64,000 nt of DNA from Prescottella soli (GTDB lineage Bacteria > Actinomycetota > Actinomycetes > Mycobacteriales > Mycobacteriaceae): positions 558,001-622,000 of the forward strand of contig NZ_CP157276.1 in the NCBI RefSeq assembly GCF_040024445.1. Reading direction: 5' to 3'. Made by a program: the position numbers and the translations under genes. This document shows, one piece after another, positions 2,910 through 10,668 of this stretch (positions are counted from its first letter, which is position 1; each line of letters opens with the position of its first letter). The notes under the pieces were generated by a model. It was not told where the DNA came from. It made no database searches and saw only the letters and a list, made by a program, of their open reading frames with translations.

Positions 2910-3611
2910 TCAGGAACCGAGCGAACCCGTCGGGATCCACCACGGCAGCAGGCCGAGCGACCCGCTCGCCGGCGGGGCCGTCCTCGGCAGCGGCGCGCCG
3001 TCGAGGTCCGCGGGCTGCGCGACGCCGAGGTTGTCGAGAACGGTGGGCGTGATGTCGGCGATCGCGTAGTCGTCGTCGGTGGCGCCGGCCTGGTAGCCCG
3101 CACCCCGCGCGATCACGAACGTCGTTGCCTCCTCGGCACTCTGGCCGCCGTGTCCGCCGGTCGGCTTGTGTCCGTGGTCGGAGGTGACGAGGATCGTCCA
3201 TTTCTCGCCGGTCGCCTTGCTGCGGGCGTCGACGGCGGCGACGATCTTGCCGACCTCAGCGTCGACGCGCTCGAGCGCCGGCGCGTACTCCGGCCCCGCG
3301 GTGCCCGACGAGTGCCCGGCGCCGTCCACCTGGTCGAGCTGGGTGAAGACGAAATCGGGTCCGTTGGTGGCGATCTCGGCGGCGACGGCCGAGGCGGTCG
3401 CCGCATCGGTCGCGGCCTCGCTACCGGCGCCCGGGGTCGTCACGACGACGTCGGCCCTGGGCGTACCCGATCCGGCGATGGTGGCGATACCGCCCCACGT
3501 CGAGATCGAGGCGGTGCGCAGTTCGGGCTTCACCTGCTCGATGCGAGTGAACGCGGTCGGGTACTGGTCGTAGCGCGCACCGTTGAACGAGTTGTCGACC
3601 ACACCGTGCTT
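2910..3611 (-). pseudogene. Alkaline-phosphatase-superfamily protein, C-terminal fragment
   Basis: This strand encodes about 234 residues of an alkaline phosphatase/nucleotide pyrophosphatase-type protein. Two metal-site motifs are visible: QLDQVDGAGHSSG and TSDHGHKPTGGHGG. The recognisable homology begins at KHGVVDNSFNGARYDQYP, which in this family follows the segment with the nucleophilic Ser/Thr. Upstream of about 3611 the reading frame stays open briefly but no longer resembles the family. The matching N-terminus is on the same strand at 10947-11156, so I read this as one gene split by an insertion with loss of about 50 codons. A GTG at 3602 could start a residual 230-residue protein, which would lack the nucleophile. 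Confidence 0.8.
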
Positions 3612-3892
3612 GGTGTGCCCCTGCGTTATCTGCCTCTGGTATCGAGTGATCGAGCCTCTAATGCTTGCTGATCTGGGTACATATTGCAGCTGGGGCGCAG
3701 GGGGTAGTCTCTGTCATGTGAGGCGCGGGAGCAGCTTCTCGCTTGCATGGCGTGGCGGCGCGAGCGTGGACAGTCACGATCGTGGCGCGCTGACCGGAAT
3801 CAGGGCCCCCTGGTCACCACCTGCGCGAGGTGACAGCACAGCCCCGGATGCGCTGTTAGCATCACCGGCATGACTAGCTTGCAGAAAGGCTC
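3612..3892. other. Non-coding stretch at the left end of the inserted segment
   Basis: No convincing coding frame. The sequence is less GC-rich than the flanks around 3640-3690. A CAGGGCCCCCTGG near-palindrome occurs around 3804. It leads into an AAAGG site in front of the small ORF at 3893. Confidence 0.4.
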
Positions 3893-4126
3893 ATGACCGG
3901 CCGTCGAACGCTTGTCGTTGAGATCGAGGATCTGGCGATCGAGGACGGTGCGATACCGCAACCTCGGGTTGGATCGGTGATCGGGCTTCCACTCCGATGC
4001 GGTGACATGCCAGACCACTGCAGGAAGGTGCCGGGCGCCGAAACACCCGACGTCAGAGCGAAAAAGTCTGACCCGTCTACGCACGGTGTCGACTGGGTCA
4101 AGAACTTCTGTTGGCAGTTCTGGTGA
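3893..4126 (+). CDS. Small hypothetical protein (77 aa)
   Basis: The ATG is preceded by AGAAAGG with a 3-nt spacer (3884-3889), a reasonable if close ribosome binding site. The 77-residue product begins MTGRRTLVVEIEDLAIEDG and is acidic at its N-terminus, with no signal peptide, membrane segment or motif that I recognise. It ends in a hydrophobic WVKNFCWQFW. It may be a truncated remnant of a longer protein, since the region after it has no gene. Support is the start site and an open frame only. Confidence 0.35.
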   Translation: MTGRRTLVVEIEDLAIEDGAIPQPRVGSVIGLPLRCGDMPDHCRKVPGAETPDVRAKKSDPSTHGVDWVKNFCWQFW

Positions 4127-4517
4127 TCACAATCTGGGAGTGCCAACCTCCGGGTGGCGTTCCCAGATTGCTCGTTTCAGATCGGATGCACCGCTCAGTC
4201 CGATGGAGTGCCTGTCGGAGCTCCGAGTAGTCGACGCCGACGCCACGGTCAGTGGCCCACGTCAGCGCTGTCGGCCGGAACTCTTGAATCAGGAGCCGGT
4301 CGCGGATCTCTCCGTCTTCCGTGAGCCAAGCCGGCTGAATGACCCCGAACCCCTGAAGTATCTCTTGACTACTTCGACATCAACGTCGGGGGCACGACGA
4401 GTGGGGGCAGTCCCTCGGCCTTGCGCTTTCCGGAATAGCTTCGAACTAGCTATAGGCTAGATGGATTCTAGAAGGCGTCTCATATCCGACTACACCTTAA
4501 GAGGAGCAAGGACCCGC
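4127..4517. other. Non-coding stretch before the response regulator
   Basis: I find no credible gene. Open frames here lack start sites and family resemblance. The end includes CTAGCTATAGGCTAG (about 4446-4460), an A/T-rich block where a promoter for the response regulator could lie. TATAGG or TAGGCT could serve as a -10, but I cannot choose. Confidence 0.35.
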
Positions 4518-5177
4518 GTGAACTCAGTGCGAACGCCCAGGTTTCGCGTAGCGATTGTCGAAGACCACAGACTCCAGCGGTTAAGGACCGAGGAACTTCT
4601 GAACAGCGCGGGGCTGGAGTTGGTCTTCAGCGGAGAGACGGCCCTGGAGTTCTTGGAATGGTCCAGATCGGTCACGCGGAACGAACGCCCTCATCTGCTC
4701 GTCCTAGACCTGATGGTGGATCGCCAGCCCAACGTGGACGTCGAACTGGTTCGGAAGCTCCTGGAGGCAGGCCTACGTATTGTGGTGCTGTCGGCACTCG
4801 CTTCTCCCTCCTTAGTGCAGAGCATGATAAAAGTAGGAGTTTCGGCCATCGTGGGCAAACGCGACTCCGAGGAAGCTATCCTCGCAGCGGTCCGGGCCGC
4901 ACTCCGGGGTGAAGAGTGGATGAGTCCCGAACTCGCTGCATTTATCGCTGGGGATTCCACCCGGCCGAAGCTGAGCGTCCAGGAAGAACGTGCGCTCCTG
5001 CTGTACGCATCCGGGCTCAAGCTACAACAAGTCGGTGATGCCATGAACATCAGCAAGGAAACCGCAAAACAGTACCTCGACCGGACACGAAAGAAGTATG
5101 CAGCCTCCGGCGTTACCCTGAAGACCCAACTGGACTTCGGCAGGGTCGCCTGGAGGGAAGGCCTCATCGAGCCCTGA
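4518..5177 (+). CDS. NarL/LuxR-type response regulator
   Basis: A 219-residue two-component response regulator. The receiver domain (about 10-125) has the acidic pair E15-D16, phospho-acceptor D64 in LLVLDLMVD, S92 and K114. The C-terminal LuxR-type helix-turn-helix is about residues 150-200 (VGDAMNISKETAKQYL). It presumably binds DNA when phosphorylated. I chose the GTG at 4518 because GAGGAGCAAGG lies 7-17 nt upstream; an ATG at 4461 would add 19 basic residues and has no such site. It converges on the histidine kinase at 5479-7884, its likely partner. GC content is below the chromosomal background, suggesting transfer. Confidence 0.85.
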   Translation: MNSVRTPRFRVAIVEDHRLQRLRTEELLNSAGLELVFSGETALEFLEWSRSVTRNERPHLLVLDLMVDRQPNVDVELVRKLLEAGLRIVVLSALASPSLVQSMIKVGVSAIVGKRDSEEAILAAVRAALRGEEWMSPELAAFIAGDSTRPKLSVQEERALLLYASGLKLQQVGDAMNISKETAKQYLDRTRKKYAASGVTLKTQLDFGRVAWREGLIEP

Positions 5178-5478
5178 CACAGGGTATGGCGAACCATATT
5201 GGGACAGCGCGACGTGTTCCGCTCATCGAGTGAGCAGGGCATCGGTTAACTGTTGCCGACAGTGCAGCAATGATACATCGTTTACAGGCTCTTCCTGATC
5301 GTATTCAACCGCGCATCGAAAAAACCACCTCGGCCACACCATCGGGGCGCTATCGACCGGACTCGATCCACCAGATGGTCGTATCGGCTGCTGCGGACCC
5401 GCCTACCTCCCCGCCACCACTGCCTGCGAGACTCCCACCGACTCACTCGCACCCGTTGCTGGACGCACGAAATTCGAC
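5178..5478. other. Convergent intergenic region without a gene
   Basis: About 300 bp between the stop codons of the response regulator (+) and the histidine kinase (-). Open frames across it are proline/serine-rich artefacts. I see no strong hairpin that would mark an intrinsic terminator. Confidence 0.4.
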
Positions 5479-7884
5479 TCAGGCGAACATCATTTCAACA
5501 AGGTTGACGGCTCCCAGCTGGGTGTTAGTGACCCTTGCGAAGGGAAAGTCGGGCGACGTGATCGATTCACCCACGAGGGTTAGCTGGAGCTCGTCGCCGA
5601 CAGGAAAGAGTGATACGCGTAGTTCGTCCCCTGGATTGAGCTTCAACAGCATCCCCAGAATGTAAGAGGCTATCGATTGAGCGGTTTCCTCGTCTCGGAT
5701 GTCAACATCACCGAGCTGCAAAAAGTATGCCACTCCGAGGTGGCGAGCGCGTGCGAGCGTCGCAGGAAAGGCCCGGCTGAGGTTTACAAGATGTGGGCTG
5801 ATTTGAACCAGCTGCCGTAGGTACCGCTCTTCTACCCCGCACGCCTGACGGGTCAATTGCGAAGCCGGGTTCCGACCACTTCGCCCGATTTCATCCAGCA
5901 AACTGATCGCCGACTCGAGCCCCGCGTCCATCCATCTCTGTTTGCTCTTCTGCGCGGCTTCCTCGACTTCGGCCTGCAGCAACGCTTCGTGTGCTTCGAG
6001 TTCTGATCTCACGACTTCTCTACCGAGAGTTGCAAGTAGCCGTTGCAGCATCGCCCATAGTCCGCAGAAACCGATCCCGACAGCCCCTGCCACCAGCACG
6101 ATCTGCGCTGCCGTTGCTGAATAGGAAAGGCCCACGAGGGCAGTCGCGAGGGCTACAAGGATCCAGAGCGCGGCCGCGAGACCTCGCGTCGACCGTCTAG
6201 GCGTTATGGCCAGAAGGAGGATGAACGGCCCGGTGGAGGCAAGAGCCTGCCAGTGCATCGCACCGTCGCTTCCGAACTCGACTGCTGCGGCAGACAATAC
6301 GAAGACGGTGATAGAGATAGTGGCCAGGAGGACGCCGGCGAGACGGTGATACTGGAAACCCGGGATGAAGCGGTAGACGAGACAGGCAGTTGCCATCAAA
6401 GTGATCATCGGAAAGAGCGCCATGTGGTGGTTCGTACCGCCCGCGGCCGTGAGGATCACGCTGACCGCAGTGACGCCAATCGCCCACAGTTCGCTCGAAC
6501 GCTGGTAGAGCTGGACAGCGGACGTCCAGGGAGCGTTCTTGGCACCGCCGGCGACTTCCGTATGCCCCGATCCGGTGCCTGCTTGATCCAGTGGCACCGT
6601 AACGGTGACCAGGGTCCCCGCACCTGGGCGGGAATCGATGGAGGCATGAAATCCGTTGTCGCAGGCGCGACCGATAATCGACTCAGCGATGCCACGGCCA
6701 TCGGTAGGCGTTCGGGGATCAAAGCCTCGGCCTAGGTCACTGATGGTGACAGTCAGTCGGGCCTCCGACATTCGAACATCGATCACCACGTGATCGGCGC
6801 CGGAATGTTTGGCAGAATTCTTCACTGCTTCGCGGACAACGTGTACGACCGCGGCTATGGTAGAAGCGGAAATAAGCTGATTGCAGTGAGCGATTTCGTC
6901 ATCGGCAACCCCGCTTCGGCGGATAGCAAATCCAGGTTGATGAAAGATCTCCTCTAACTTCTCAGGAATTGGACGGGTCGTCCGAGCTTGTAGCGCACGG
7001 AGAATTTTCACGTCCCGGCGACATTGTTCTTGTATGTATCGATGACCGGCGATGTCGGCGCTACCATCTGCGATGGCACCGAGCGTGTTTATTGCCGTGT
7101 CGTGAAGCATGCGAGACTCCTCGACAAGTTCCATGCTTACACGTTCGACCAACCGGGTCCGCTGCAGGGCGGCGTTTCTACGAGATTCGATCGCATCCGC
7201 TTCGGATGCGATAATGACAAGTCGTGACACTCCCCACCGGACGGCGATAATGATCGATAGCTGAGTAGTCAGAATCGAGACGAAAGTTCCTATTCCCCAC
7301 TCAGGAAGTGCCAGAGCCAAGATCGCAACCAGCGCCACTGTGATGCCGGTAGTGAGAGGGGCTCCGTAGGGGCGGAGCAACAGTATGATTCCTAGGCAGG
7401 TCGCAAAGTTGATCTGCCAGCATGCGGCAAAAACGAGAGCGGAATCTATATCTCCGCTCGCGAGGTAGGCCCAGAGTCCGGTACCCGCCATTCCTGTCGA
7501 AATCAGTGGGTCCAGGTGGCGCCCGGTGCGCGCGAGAAGTGCGCTTAATCCGACAAGTGTCACCGCGGCTGCGAGTGCGAGACCATCACGGCCGAGGGTG
7601 CCGAATGCGGTGAACACCATGACGAATTGCCAGAGTGCAGCGAAGGCGAGTGCAGATTGACGGAACGCCATAAGGATCGAACGAGTCTCCACCGCGGTGG
7701 AGAATTCTCTCGGAGATACAGATTCGCGTTCACTAAGATCTACGAACAATACGGCAAATATCGGTAACCGAAATGCTGCCGAAAAGAACGTTCTCAACTT
7801 CTGGATTCCAATCGTGGCGGGCAACGAATAATCAATTGTATCGTCCAGCATCTTGTTAGTTGCAATCGCGGTCGAAACTCCCAA
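5479..7884 (-). CDS. Membrane histidine kinase with a second, degenerate kinase half
   Basis: 801 residues from a TTG; an in-frame ATG is at 7851, and neither has a clear ribosome site. The first half has about five membrane segments (75-222), a cytoplasmic helix, a HisKA_3-like dimerisation motif ESRMLHDTAINTL with phospho-acceptor H261, and a HATPase domain with N-box N356, D383 in SDLGRGF and DGRGIAESI at 395-403. The second half repeats the plan: membrane segments (465-620), a helix (620-650), a DHp-like stretch RWMDAGLESAISLL in which the His position is not His, and a fold resembling the ATPase core (700-775) without N, D or G boxes. It probably senses a membrane signal and phosphorylates the adjacent regulator. 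The duplication is my inference from order and weak similarity. Confidence 0.85.
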   Translation of the reverse strand: MGVSTAIATNKMLDDTIDYSLPATIGIQKLRTFFSAAFRLPIFAVLFVDLSERESVSPREFSTAVETRSILMAFRQSALAFAALWQFVMVFTAFGTLGRDGLALAAAVTLVGLSALLARTGRHLDPLISTGMAGTGLWAYLASGDIDSALVFAACWQINFATCLGIILLLRPYGAPLTTGITVALVAILALALPEWGIGTFVSILTTQLSIIIAVRWGVSRLVIIASEADAIESRRNAALQRTRLVERVSMELVEESRMLHDTAINTLGAIADGSADIAGHRYIQEQCRRDVKILRALQARTTRPIPEKLEEIFHQPGFAIRRSGVADDEIAHCNQLISASTIAAVVHVVREAVKNSAKHSGADHVVIDVRMSEARLTVTISDLGRGFDPRTPTDGRGIAESIIGRACDNGFHASIDSRPGAGTLVTVTVPLDQAGTGSGHTEVAGGAKNAPWTSAVQLYQRSSELWAIGVTAVSVILTAAGGTNHHMALFPMITLMATACLVYRFIPGFQYHRLAGVLLATISITVFVLSAAAVEFGSDGAMHWQALASTGPFILLLAITPRRSTRGLAAALWILVALATALVGLSYSATAAQIVLVAGAVGIGFCGLWAMLQRLLATLGREVVRSELEAHEALLQAEVEEAAQKSKQRWMDAGLESAISLLDEIGRSGRNPASQLTRQACGVEERYLRQLVQISPHLVNLSRAFPATLARARHLGVAYFLQLGDVDIRDEETAQSIASYILGMLLKLNPGDELRVSLFPVGDELQLTLVGESITSPDFPFARVTNTQLGAVNLVEMMFA

Positions 7885-8009
7885 GACGGAGTGGGCTCGG
7901 CTGCGATTTCAGGAGGCCCCACATGGGGGAGGTGTCAGTGGCTGGCGCTTGCACAGGCGTCACTAATCGGTGGATTTCCAGGCCCGGCTCATTACCAATC
8001 CTGATCACA
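7885..8009. other. Divergent intergenic region between kinase and LuxR regulator
   Basis: No gene. The stretch contains a short hairpin CCCC-ACAT-GGGG (7917-7928) and leads into the tandem repeat at 8010. With the repeat and the leader to 8181 it is the only space available for the promoters of both divergent genes. Confidence 0.4.
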
Positions 8010-8071
8010 TGTCCCCTTGCCGGGGGTCATACTAGTTGACTGTCCCCTTGCCGGGGGTCATATTATTTGAC
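8010..8071. repeat. Two tandem copies of a 31-bp repeat
   Basis: Copies run 8010-8040 and 8041-8071. Each starts TGTCCCCTTGCCGGGGGTCA and ends in an A/T-rich TAxTAxTTGAC-type tail; the copies differ at only a few tail positions. Inside each copy CCCC-TTGCC-GGGG forms a small dyad. The repeat lies 111 bp before the LuxR start. It could be a double operator, or the repeated terminal motif of a lost insertion sequence (multiple end repeats are known for IS21-family elements). No transposase is present. Confidence 0.75.
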
Positions 8072-8181
8072 ACTTAATTAATGCCCAGCCTACGGTCACG
8101 GCTGCCGCAAACAATATGACTGAAATTTCCGGTCCACATCGCGGACTTCGTCGGTCGCCGCACCGAACCCGAAGGACGTCC

Positions 8182-10668
8182 ATGACGCAAGAGCTCATCG
8201 ATTCGAGTGCCGACACCTATGTCTGGGCGCCGGGCAGGTTGGTCGACCGACTCCGACGCAGCTCCGGGCTCATCGTCGTGCAGGCGCCGCACGGATTCGG
8301 GCAATCGAGCCTGGTGTCCGCCTGGCTCGACGCATCCCGCGCGGCCGGACGCCTCGCGGTCCGCATCGCGCCGCCCGCGCCGACGATCACCGCGGACGCC
8401 CATTGGGCCCAGGTCACCGCTGCCCTGGCGGATGCTGATGGTCCGGTCGACATCGCGATCGAACGCGTCGACCTGCACCGGGACCCGATCGTCGAACGAC
8501 GGATCCTCGATCTGGTCGACGGCAGTCCCGCTGTGCACGTCGTGGCGACGGTGATCGGGCAATCGCTGTTCGACGACCCGCTGACAATCGGGCCGTACGA
8601 CGACACCCTCCGGGCCGACGATCTGCTGTACACGCAGGACGACCTGCAGGAGATGTTTCGCTCCGCGGGCCTCGACCGGTCGGATGCCGATCTGAGCGCC
8701 CTCCAGCACAGGTCCGGAGGGCACCCCGGATTGTGCACAGCGGTACTCGAAAGGACGAAGTCCGAACGTCCCCTCACCGGCGAAGACCTCGAGCGGGTGT
8801 TCGCCGACGCGGTCACGAGCCACGTTCACGACGACATCCTGGCGGCGGTGAATGCCGAGGAGCGAGAGTTCCTGGTGCGCGCCGCGACCGCGCACGTCCT
8901 CACCGTGGACCTCGCGCAGCACCTCGGTGGCGGCCCGGACTCGCCGCGGTACCTGCGAGACCTCGAGTCGGCCGGGATCCTGGACCACCGCGGGACCGCC
9001 GACGGTGACACCTGGCGGCTACCGCCCGCGGTGCGCACCGAACTGATCGCCGTCCAGTCGGCCGAGGGCCTCGAACCGGCGGCCCGGTCGGCGCTACTCG
9101 CCCTCCACCATCGGGATCGGGGCGAACACGCGGCCGCGCTGCGCTGTGCCGTCGACGCCGAGGACTGGGAACTCGCCGTCGACGTGTTCGACCAGCACGG
9201 AGCCGCCCTGGCGAGCTCACATACGGATCTGCTTCGGGACGTCCTGCTGATCCTGCCCGAGGCGATCATGGACGATCGTCCTGGGATTCGCCTGCTCCGC
9301 GCCGTGGTGATTCAACTGGAGGGGGGCAATCCCGATCCCGGCCCCACGAACTCCCACGACGCCGCTGACCTGCTCGATCTGACGGCCGCCTTGGATCCCC
9401 GTGCGGCGCTGATCGTGCTGGGGCTTCGGGTTCTTCTGCGGCGCCTGGCCGGGAACTACGAGACGGCCGCCGAGCAGACGCGTCTTCTCGACGTCGGGGT
9501 GCGGCGACTGCTCGACGTCGACACCGATGCGGCCACCGATTTCCTGCCGTTCCTGCGCATGCAGTTCGGGCTCACGTACCAGTTGGCGGGAGACTTTGCC
9601 GGGTCCACGGTGCAACTTCGACTCGCCCATCGACTGGGCACGGCGCGCCGGATGCACTTCGTCTCGCGCAACGCCGCCGGCAATTCCGCCCTCAACTGGG
9701 CATTCGCCGGCGAGGCGCAGCGGGCATACGACTGGCTCAGGGAAGAGAACCAGATCCCGCCCGCCGACGACTGGACAGAGTCGCTGGTGCGGATCGGCGG
9801 TGCGGTCGCCCGCGCACTTACCGCGATCGACACCCTCGACTTCGACACCGCTGGCCGTGCCGTCGACAGTCTGCGAGAGCTACCCGAGGTCGTGGAGCTG
9901 TGGCCGTTCGTCACCTTCGCACGCTGCCGATACGCCATCGCGACGGGCACGCCAGCCCTCGGCGTCGCGGCGCTCACTGAGTTCGCTGAAGCACGGTCAC
10001 GCGCGAGGGGAACCTTCGTACAGACGCTTCTCGACGCCATCGAGGTCGAGGTGCGCCTCGCGCTCGGCGATGTCGCGCGGGCGCGGGCCCTCACGGATTC
10101 CCTGTCATGCACCACACCGTGGGCAGTTGTCGCGGTCGCACGTACACATCTCCTCGCCGGGGACCACCAGTCCGCGATCATCACGTGCCGCAAGTACGAC
10201 TGGCTCGGGATGCCCTACGCACGATCGCATCTCGAGGCACTCGTGATCGAATCGGCGGCGGCCAGCCGACTGGGCCGTGACAGGGATGCTCTCCGCACCT
10301 GGACCCACGCCTGCGATATCGCCGATCGCACCGGGATCCGGAGCGCGTTCGCGACGATCGAGCGCACCGCAGTAGTTTCCCTCAGCGGACGGGCGGCACG
10401 GCCGTCTGCGACCGTCGCCGAGTTCCTGGCGACACCGGTACCCGAGCACTATCCCGCCGCACTGGAGTTCCCCCAGCTCACCGAACGCGAGATGGCCGTG
10501 CTCAACGGTGTGATGCGAGGCCTGACCGCCGGACAGATCGCAGCGCTGATGTTCCTCTCGACCTCGACCATCAAGACGCACAAGCGCACGCTCTACCGAA
10601 AGCTGGCGGCGCACACGCGCGCCGAGGCGATCGACCGTGCTCGCACCTTCGGATTCCTCGATACCTAG
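8182..10668 (+). CDS. LuxR-family (MalT/LAL-like) regulator with degenerate P-loop
   Basis: 828 residues. The N-terminal region resembles the STAND ATPase module of LAL regulators, the middle is helical and TPR-like, and the C-terminal LuxR helix-turn-helix (about 765-828) reads LTEREMAVLNGVMRGLTAGQ and then STSTIKTHKRTLYRKL. The Walker A position reads APHGFGQSS with Q41 where Lys is expected, and the Walker B region is also poor, so ATP binding is doubtful. I chose the ATG at 8182 because GAAGGA lies 5 nt upstream; an ATG at 8116 would add 22 basic residues. Its target is unknown. GC is high, unlike the kinase next door. Confidence 0.85.
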   Translation: MTQELIDSSADTYVWAPGRLVDRLRRSSGLIVVQAPHGFGQSSLVSAWLDASRAAGRLAVRIAPPAPTITADAHWAQVTAALADADGPVDIAIERVDLHRDPIVERRILDLVDGSPAVHVVATVIGQSLFDDPLTIGPYDDTLRADDLLYTQDDLQEMFRSAGLDRSDADLSALQHRSGGHPGLCTAVLERTKSERPLTGEDLERVFADAVTSHVHDDILAAVNAEEREFLVRAATAHVLTVDLAQHLGGGPDSPRYLRDLESAGILDHRGTADGDTWRLPPAVRTELIAVQSAEGLEPAARSALLALHHRDRGEHAAALRCAVDAEDWELAVDVFDQHGAALASSHTDLLRDVLLILPEAIMDDRPGIRLLRAVVIQLEGGNPDPGPTNSHDAADLLDLTAALDPRAALIVLGLRVLLRRLAGNYETAAEQTRLLDVGVRRLLDVDTDAATDFLPFLRMQFGLTYQLAGDFAGSTVQLRLAHRLGTARRMHFVSRNAAGNSALNWAFAGEAQRAYDWLREENQIPPADDWTESLVRIGGAVARALTAIDTLDFDTAGRAVDSLRELPEVVELWPFVTFARCRYAIATGTPALGVAALTEFAEARSRARGTFVQTLLDAIEVEVRLALGDVARARALTDSLSCTTPWAVVAVARTHLLAGDHQSAIITCRKYDWLGMPYARSHLEALVIESAAASRLGRDRDALRTWTHACDIADRTGIRSAFATIERTAVVSLSGRAARPSATVAEFLATPVPEHYPAALEFPQLTEREMAVLNGVMRGLTAGQIAALMFLSTSTIKTHKRTLYRKLAAHTRAEAIDRARTFGFLDT

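Follow-up and report, generated by a model that had tools for sequence, protein, structure and literature searches.

A sensor protein with an intact and a degenerate histidine kinase-like half, recurring in fused and split form among actinomycetes

The window, a 64,000-nucleotide stretch that is part of a 5.48 Mb one-contig genome, encodes a sensor protein in which an intact-looking histidine kinase half is followed by a second kinase-like half that has lost its catalytic residues. The pair recurs, fused or as neighbours, in other actinomycetes, a pattern that points to a useful role for the dead half as partner of the live one. The reading that we favor, and consider reasonably probable, is that two old paralogues make up a two-component sensor, in which the pseudokinase half pairs with the live half and sets the activity of its site. 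In this reading the first half (membrane domain, DHp with the His, and intact ATPase) would autophosphorylate and then hand the phosphate to a response regulator. The second half (membrane domain, DHp-like hairpin and dead ATPase) would pair with it, either within the same chain or, when the genes are split, as the neighboring subunit, so that it would contribute the opposite side of the four-helix DHp bundle and determine both the geometry of the single live site and how active it is, a control that would probably answer to its own membrane domain. Here we infer the physical pairing of the halves, the direction of the regulation and the phosphotransfer to the neighboring regulator. An earlier note on this DNA had proposed a built-in regulatory subunit within an obligate dimer; the existence of split pairs and the reciprocal loss in the DHp (see below) make this likelier, the contact between the halves being presumed.

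Table 1. Coordinates of the sensor kinase, its parts and the adjacent regulator gene within the window
Feature	Position	Strand	Basis
Response regulator, REC + HTH-like region, convergent with the kinase, downstream	4461..5177	plus	Response_reg E 1.4e-8, above cutoff
Tandem sensor kinase ORF, 801 aa	5479..7884	minus	single uninterrupted 801-codon frame; full-length homologues
First multi-pass membrane domain, residues ~79-215	7240..7650	minus	hydropathy
First DHp, residues 231-305, contains His 261	6970..7194	minus	profile comparison and residue counts
H261 codon, predicted phosphorylated His	7102..7104	minus	His in 58/58 first halves
R296 codon, first-half DHp helix-2 Arg	6997..6999	minus	present here, missing in 49/58 first halves
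First catalytic ATPase domain, residues 306-439, with N356, D383, G398	6568..6969	minus	HATPase_c E 2.6e-10 and residue counts
Second multi-pass membrane domain, residues ~466-613	6046..6489	minus	hydropathy
Second, DHp-like hairpin without His, residues 627-700	5785..6006	minus	hhalign DHp vs DHp, prob 94.4
L656 codon, counterpart of H261	5917..5919	minus	His in 0/58 second halves
R690 codon, invariant second-half column	5815..5817	minus	Arg in 55/55, then 58/58 second halves compared
Second, degenerate ATPase-like domain, residues 701-801, N/D/G boxes lost	5482..5784	minus	hhalign prob 92.8 and residue counts

The kinase frame may start at a TTG, which gives 801 aa, or at an ATG at residue 72 (base 7671), which gives 730 aa. 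Hydropathy placed one membrane domain before core 1 and another between the two cores, with five hydrophobic segments preceding each core and one more at residues 32-50 if the TTG start is used. The two membrane domains matched each other with an hhalign probability of 67. A frameshift or a second gene within the ORF, which the earlier note had named as an outcome contrary to its reading, was ruled out, because there is one frame here and the homologues of other genera and families span both halves unbroken.

The first half has the makings of an intact HisKA_3-like histidine kinase, and autokinase activity is predicted for it. H261, N356, D383 and the DxGxG and G motifs were found at the positions that the earlier note had assigned to them. 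The His, the N-box Asn and the D-box Asp were present in 46/46 fused and 12/12 split first halves, and the G-box Gly was kept in all 58. In a Pfam search HATPase_c matched only the first half (residues 345-433, E 2.6e-10, 41.1 bits against a cutoff of 26.4). The Pfam HisKA_3 model returned no row for the window protein at E up to 10, and the assignment of the first DHp therefore rests on its motif (LHDT) and on the profile match to DesK: against PDB sequences, a profile of 28 first-half cores matched DesK across DHp and ATPase, with a best E of 6e-17; its matches to VraS and DevS covered the ATPase.

That the second half is related to the same kind of core was indicated by profile-profile comparison. 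With hhalign, core 1 and core 2 matched with a probability of 97.6 (E 3e-12), and the same two cores in separately made tool alignments gave 97.5 (E 6.6e-12). By domain, DHp against DHp reached 94.4 and ATPase against ATPase 92.8, and the cross pairings gave 0.1. A reversed profile scored 0.2. The highest value was 0.9 among 40 column shuffles and 76.7 among 40 shuffles of 15-column blocks, the latter a measure of what common helix pieces alone achieve. The earlier note had held that the second copy keeps the spacing of the first, and indeed the profile alignment pairs the segments that it had matched, with H261 facing L656; the comparison of the halves that it had proposed thus returned homology, and not a second core unlike HisKA/HATPase. 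An unrelated C-terminal membrane protein is excluded by the same homology. The loss of the His and of the N, D and G boxes, also claimed before, holds for the family: among 58 second halves the His was found in none, the N-box Asn in one, the D-box Asp in none and the G-box Gly in six. The latter was counted in its own column; the adjacent R397 column is a gap in 54/58 second halves.

Domain models did not recognize these cores. When 55 second-half cores were searched against Pfam (E up to 1), no kinase family appeared among the 25 families listed of the 26 matched, and no kinase model was among the 7 families matched in NCBIfam (E up to 0.1). The second-half profile had only unconvincing matches among PDB sequences: a designed ferredoxin (E 7.8e-5), followed by a "Sensor protein" (7zp0, E 0.007), Gemin7 (E 0.009) and ZraS (E 0.07). 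A bridge is provided by 14 active single kinases, selected for matching both profiles, which scored 45-129 bits with the second-half profile and 192-243 bits with the first-half profile, and all of which (14/14) have the His. From the match to core 1 and from these bridging kinases we infer that core 2 descended from a histidine kinase, and that the second half, homologous to a core of DHp plus ATPase, is a pseudokinase derived from one.

Homologues were sought in genomes of the genus (14, the window's own included), the family (301 + 201), the order (298) and the class (296). Full-length homologues were found in several families, and within the genus the full-length kinase was found only in the window's own genome. 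At least 46 distinct fused proteins and at least 12 split pairs of neighboring genes (9 from the loci collected plus 3 from Actinomadura) were obtained, counts that are no census because the loci were taken from best-match lists at strict E-values. The conservation of the layout, which the earlier note had left to a homologue search, is thereby established for other actinomycetes in fused or split form. In the split pairs the second-half frame starts at or slightly before the end of the first-half gene, as judged by the first possible start codon or by the start of the match. In a sample of phylum genomes, second-half matches were found in 6/246, all six within the class, the out-of-class share of the sample being uncounted. 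The plasmid collection gave no match, and the genome contigs searched with the window protein gave no relative. The set of 58 + 58 halves used for the comparisons omits two divergent split-like pairs whose second-core starts show no LHD motif (L010 and L016), a locus in which the match starts inside the first half (L093), locus-end fragments, repeats of the same protein and the later-found loci L153-L158. Four fused kinase/pseudokinase genes stand head to tail in tandem arrays at L073 (genome G014) and at L115/L124/L129/L131 (G068), and no regulator-like ORF was found in the examined flanks of these arrays. The loci L118-L121, L125, L127, L005, L036, L046 and L050 encode active single kinases that match both profiles, and these may be relatives of the kinase from which the pseudokinase arose.

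A quick tree was built from 140 cores, and in it 58/58 second halves formed one clade (SH-aLRT 99), which adjoins the 14 active singles (support of the joint group 89); the exact sister group is unsure, since the branches of the second halves are long and the tree tool warned of this. The main subfamilies recur in first and second halves, including the one that joins the window's protein with L034, L025, L084, L085, L035 and L065. The identities of the two halves correlated pairwise, with r 0.92 for the 46 fused and r 0.79 for the 12 split systems, a correlation that occurred in 0/2000 permutations. Because linked inheritance alone produces such a correlation, it speaks for one old, stably kept pairing and not for contact between the halves. 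This pairing was maintained across fusion or fission. The internal tandem duplication seen by the earlier note stands as regards the two kinase-like halves; it is not a recent intragenic duplication, as the second half belongs to an old family that also occurs as a standalone neighbor gene.

For 24 active relatives, 14 of them single and 10 ordinary kinases, the conserved columns were followed through both halves. Among them the catalytic set is kept by the first halves and lost by the second. The Arg of DHp helix 2 (R690 in the window) was found in 24/24 active relatives and 58/58 second halves, and in 9/58 first halves, where Glu is the commonest residue of this column (24/58). Likewise, an Arg eight residues before the His was present in 22/24 active relatives, 44/58 second halves and 12/58 first halves. 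On a tree that joins the first halves to the active relatives, the helix-2 residue changes state at least nine times. The window's protein is atypical, its own first half being among the nine with the helix-2 Arg (R296), which tells against the favored reading, and its second half carries a Lys at the position eight before the His column. In these alignments, then, the loss is reciprocal, a new observation: second halves drop the catalytic residues, and first halves mostly drop the DHp Arg.

A composite site is a possible, if somewhat doubtful, explanation of this pattern. Helix 1 of the live half, with the His, and the helix-2 Arg of the dead half would together make one docking and phosphotransfer site, and the protein would be a one-sited asymmetric kinase. 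The mirror site would be dead twice, having no His on one side and, on the other, an Arg that is usually replaced, mostly by Glu. In the DesK:DesR complex (PMC5231405), the regulator sits on one protomer's helix 1 and touches helix 2 of the second protomer to a minor extent; DesK Arg235 forms a salt bridge with DesR Asp103. Taken together, these contacts would place Arg235 on the second protomer. R690 lies 34 residues from L656, level with the His position in the symmetric hairpin, and is for this reason plausibly the equivalent of Arg235. This equivalence rests on the symmetry of the hairpin and gets no support from the automatic alignment to DesK, which sets the extra residues of DesK after the Arg position and not within the hairpin. 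The hairpin is shorter here, with 34-35 residues from the His position to the helix-2 Arg, versus 47 in DesK (His188-Arg235). In the phosphotransferase complex of DesK (PMC5231405), contact is made across protomers, the CA domain of one reaching DHp helix 1 of its partner. If phosphorylation occurs between protomers, a pair of a first and a second half sets the live ATPase against a His-less hairpin, and pairing would instead be required between first halves from two chains; by analogy, a mixed-half pair would not suit a DesK-like ATPase contact unless phosphorylation takes place within the half.

In a rival arrangement, first halves pair with first halves and second halves with second halves, so that the second half would be a parallel sensory or scaffolding module and not a DHp partner. 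DesK is itself a dimer of one kind of chain (PMC5231405), each half here has a membrane domain of its own, and the helix-2 Arg is still there in 9/58 first halves. Nevertheless, like-with-like pairing alone leaves unexplained why first halves so often lose a DHp Arg that 58/58 second halves retain, and we regard this arrangement as unlikely, although it deserves serious consideration. A pseudokinase could also act in trans and titrate or rewire other histidine kinases of the cell, in the manner of the laboratory-evolved ChrS with HrrS, for which heterodimers are reported (PMC9491836), and the second half does retain a DHp-like hairpin. Yet it is fused to, or lies directly beside, one partner and has diverged together with that partner, which makes a trans-acting role quite improbable.

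Selection bears on the remaining alternative, that the second half is the functionless remnant of a decaying duplication. The catalytic boxes are lost, and no kinase family is among the Pfam/NCBIfam matches listed for 55 cores, as such a remnant would have it. However, the second half was retained in the 58 systems compared, with R690 invariant, and the dN/dS of the second core was 0.05-0.40 in 14 homologue pairs. For 13 pairs, some with a member in common, it could be computed for both cores, and in 11 of these the dead core had the lower value. These values are unlike those of a decaying remnant, and this explanation, to which we give scarcely any credence, was rejected. The description of the protein as a catalytic half joined to a degenerate kinase-like half is thus upheld by profiles, residue counts, the tree and dN/dS, with both conservation and selection of the second half.

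The earlier note knew of no characterised example, and none of this layout was found in the open-access literature, a scope that leaves most subscription journals outside. DesK, which we take to be of the HisKA_3 type (in part from PMC5231405), VraS and DevS have the H, N, D and G boxes of the first half; they differ from the present system in that here a dead second core is fused or next door. DivL, a pseudo-histidine kinase of Caulobacter, is a kinase-like regulator of a live kinase, a resemblance in principle only, and, unlike here, it is separate from and unfused to its partner. DivL has a Tyr in place of the His. ChrS of Corynebacterium glutamicum is an actinobacterial sensor kinase without a working ATPase, reported to form heterodimers with its live paralogue HrrS; it arose by laboratory evolution through a frameshift in the CA domain, and is not a natural fused or paired family (PMC9491836). 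The AbrC1/AbrC2/AbrC3 system of Streptomyces coelicolor resembles the split form in having two kinase genes beside one response regulator, the genes being 114 and 308 bp apart. AbrC1 and AbrC2 both autophosphorylate on His, and identity with them was rejected, since both are active. A survey of 2010 counted two transmitter domains in 2/15704 non-hybrid and 51/4650 hybrid kinases (PMC3018481). Such proteins have two cores in one chain, as here, and no live-plus-dead pair is described for them in the available parts of PMC3018481 and PMC4603909. As no known system compared has the layout, a HisKA_3-like kinase with a dedicated pseudokinase half represents a new variant, and the results suggest that such surveys leave out kinases of this class, in which degeneration has put the second core beyond the reach of the models. 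If the composite-site reading is true, a one-sited asymmetric kinase exists in many actinomycete families and went unnoticed because domain models do not detect its second half. Two questions could be addressed here, namely whether histidine kinases require two equal sites and what purpose the asymmetry of their dimers serves: one site is apparently fixed in the dead state in fused and split forms alike, so that each half can be mutated, or deleted, without touching the other. The Arg/Glu swap sharply predicts the helices that contact the response regulator.

In the response regulator gene (4461..5177) HTH models match below their cutoffs. A regulator-like ORF was detected in the examined flanks of 28/55 systems, including 9/9 split ones; some of the 28 ORFs may be other LuxR-type genes, because the search profile includes the HTH region. 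In the other 27/55, including L063, the closest homologue found, no regulator-like ORF was seen in the flank examined, which speaks against the favored reading. The genome of L063 (G329) holds a second fused paralogue, L065, with a regulator-like ORF beside it, none having been found near L063. Over positions ~3500-8000, which hold the regulator and the kinase, the GC content is 56-61%, versus 66-75% around. This drop, and the absence of a full-length kinase from the 13 other genomes of the genus, suggest that the regulator and the kinase were acquired by transfer. No empty site could be found: in blastn, the LuxR gene was the only part of the first 16 kb of the window that aligned to three congeneric loci. 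This large LuxR-type gene (8116-10668; GerE and a weak AAA match, labeled MalT-like in the analysis) lies upstream of the kinase on the opposite strand. It is probably outside the system: within the genus it is best matched (63-70% identity) in three genomes that yielded no full-length kinase, although a gene of this kind also stands next to the kinase in G062. At 8010-8060, between the LuxR gene and the kinase, two perfect copies of a 20-base sequence lie 31 bp apart. This repeat has a near-palindromic C/G-rich core, only these two copies exist genome-wide at up to 2 mismatches, and it may serve as a regulator site or be what a mobile element left behind. Beside the low-GC island, a type I phosphodiesterase-like ORF of 230 aa was observed at 2913-3602; its best stretch covers profile positions 149-224 of 342, and the ORF may be truncated at its start.
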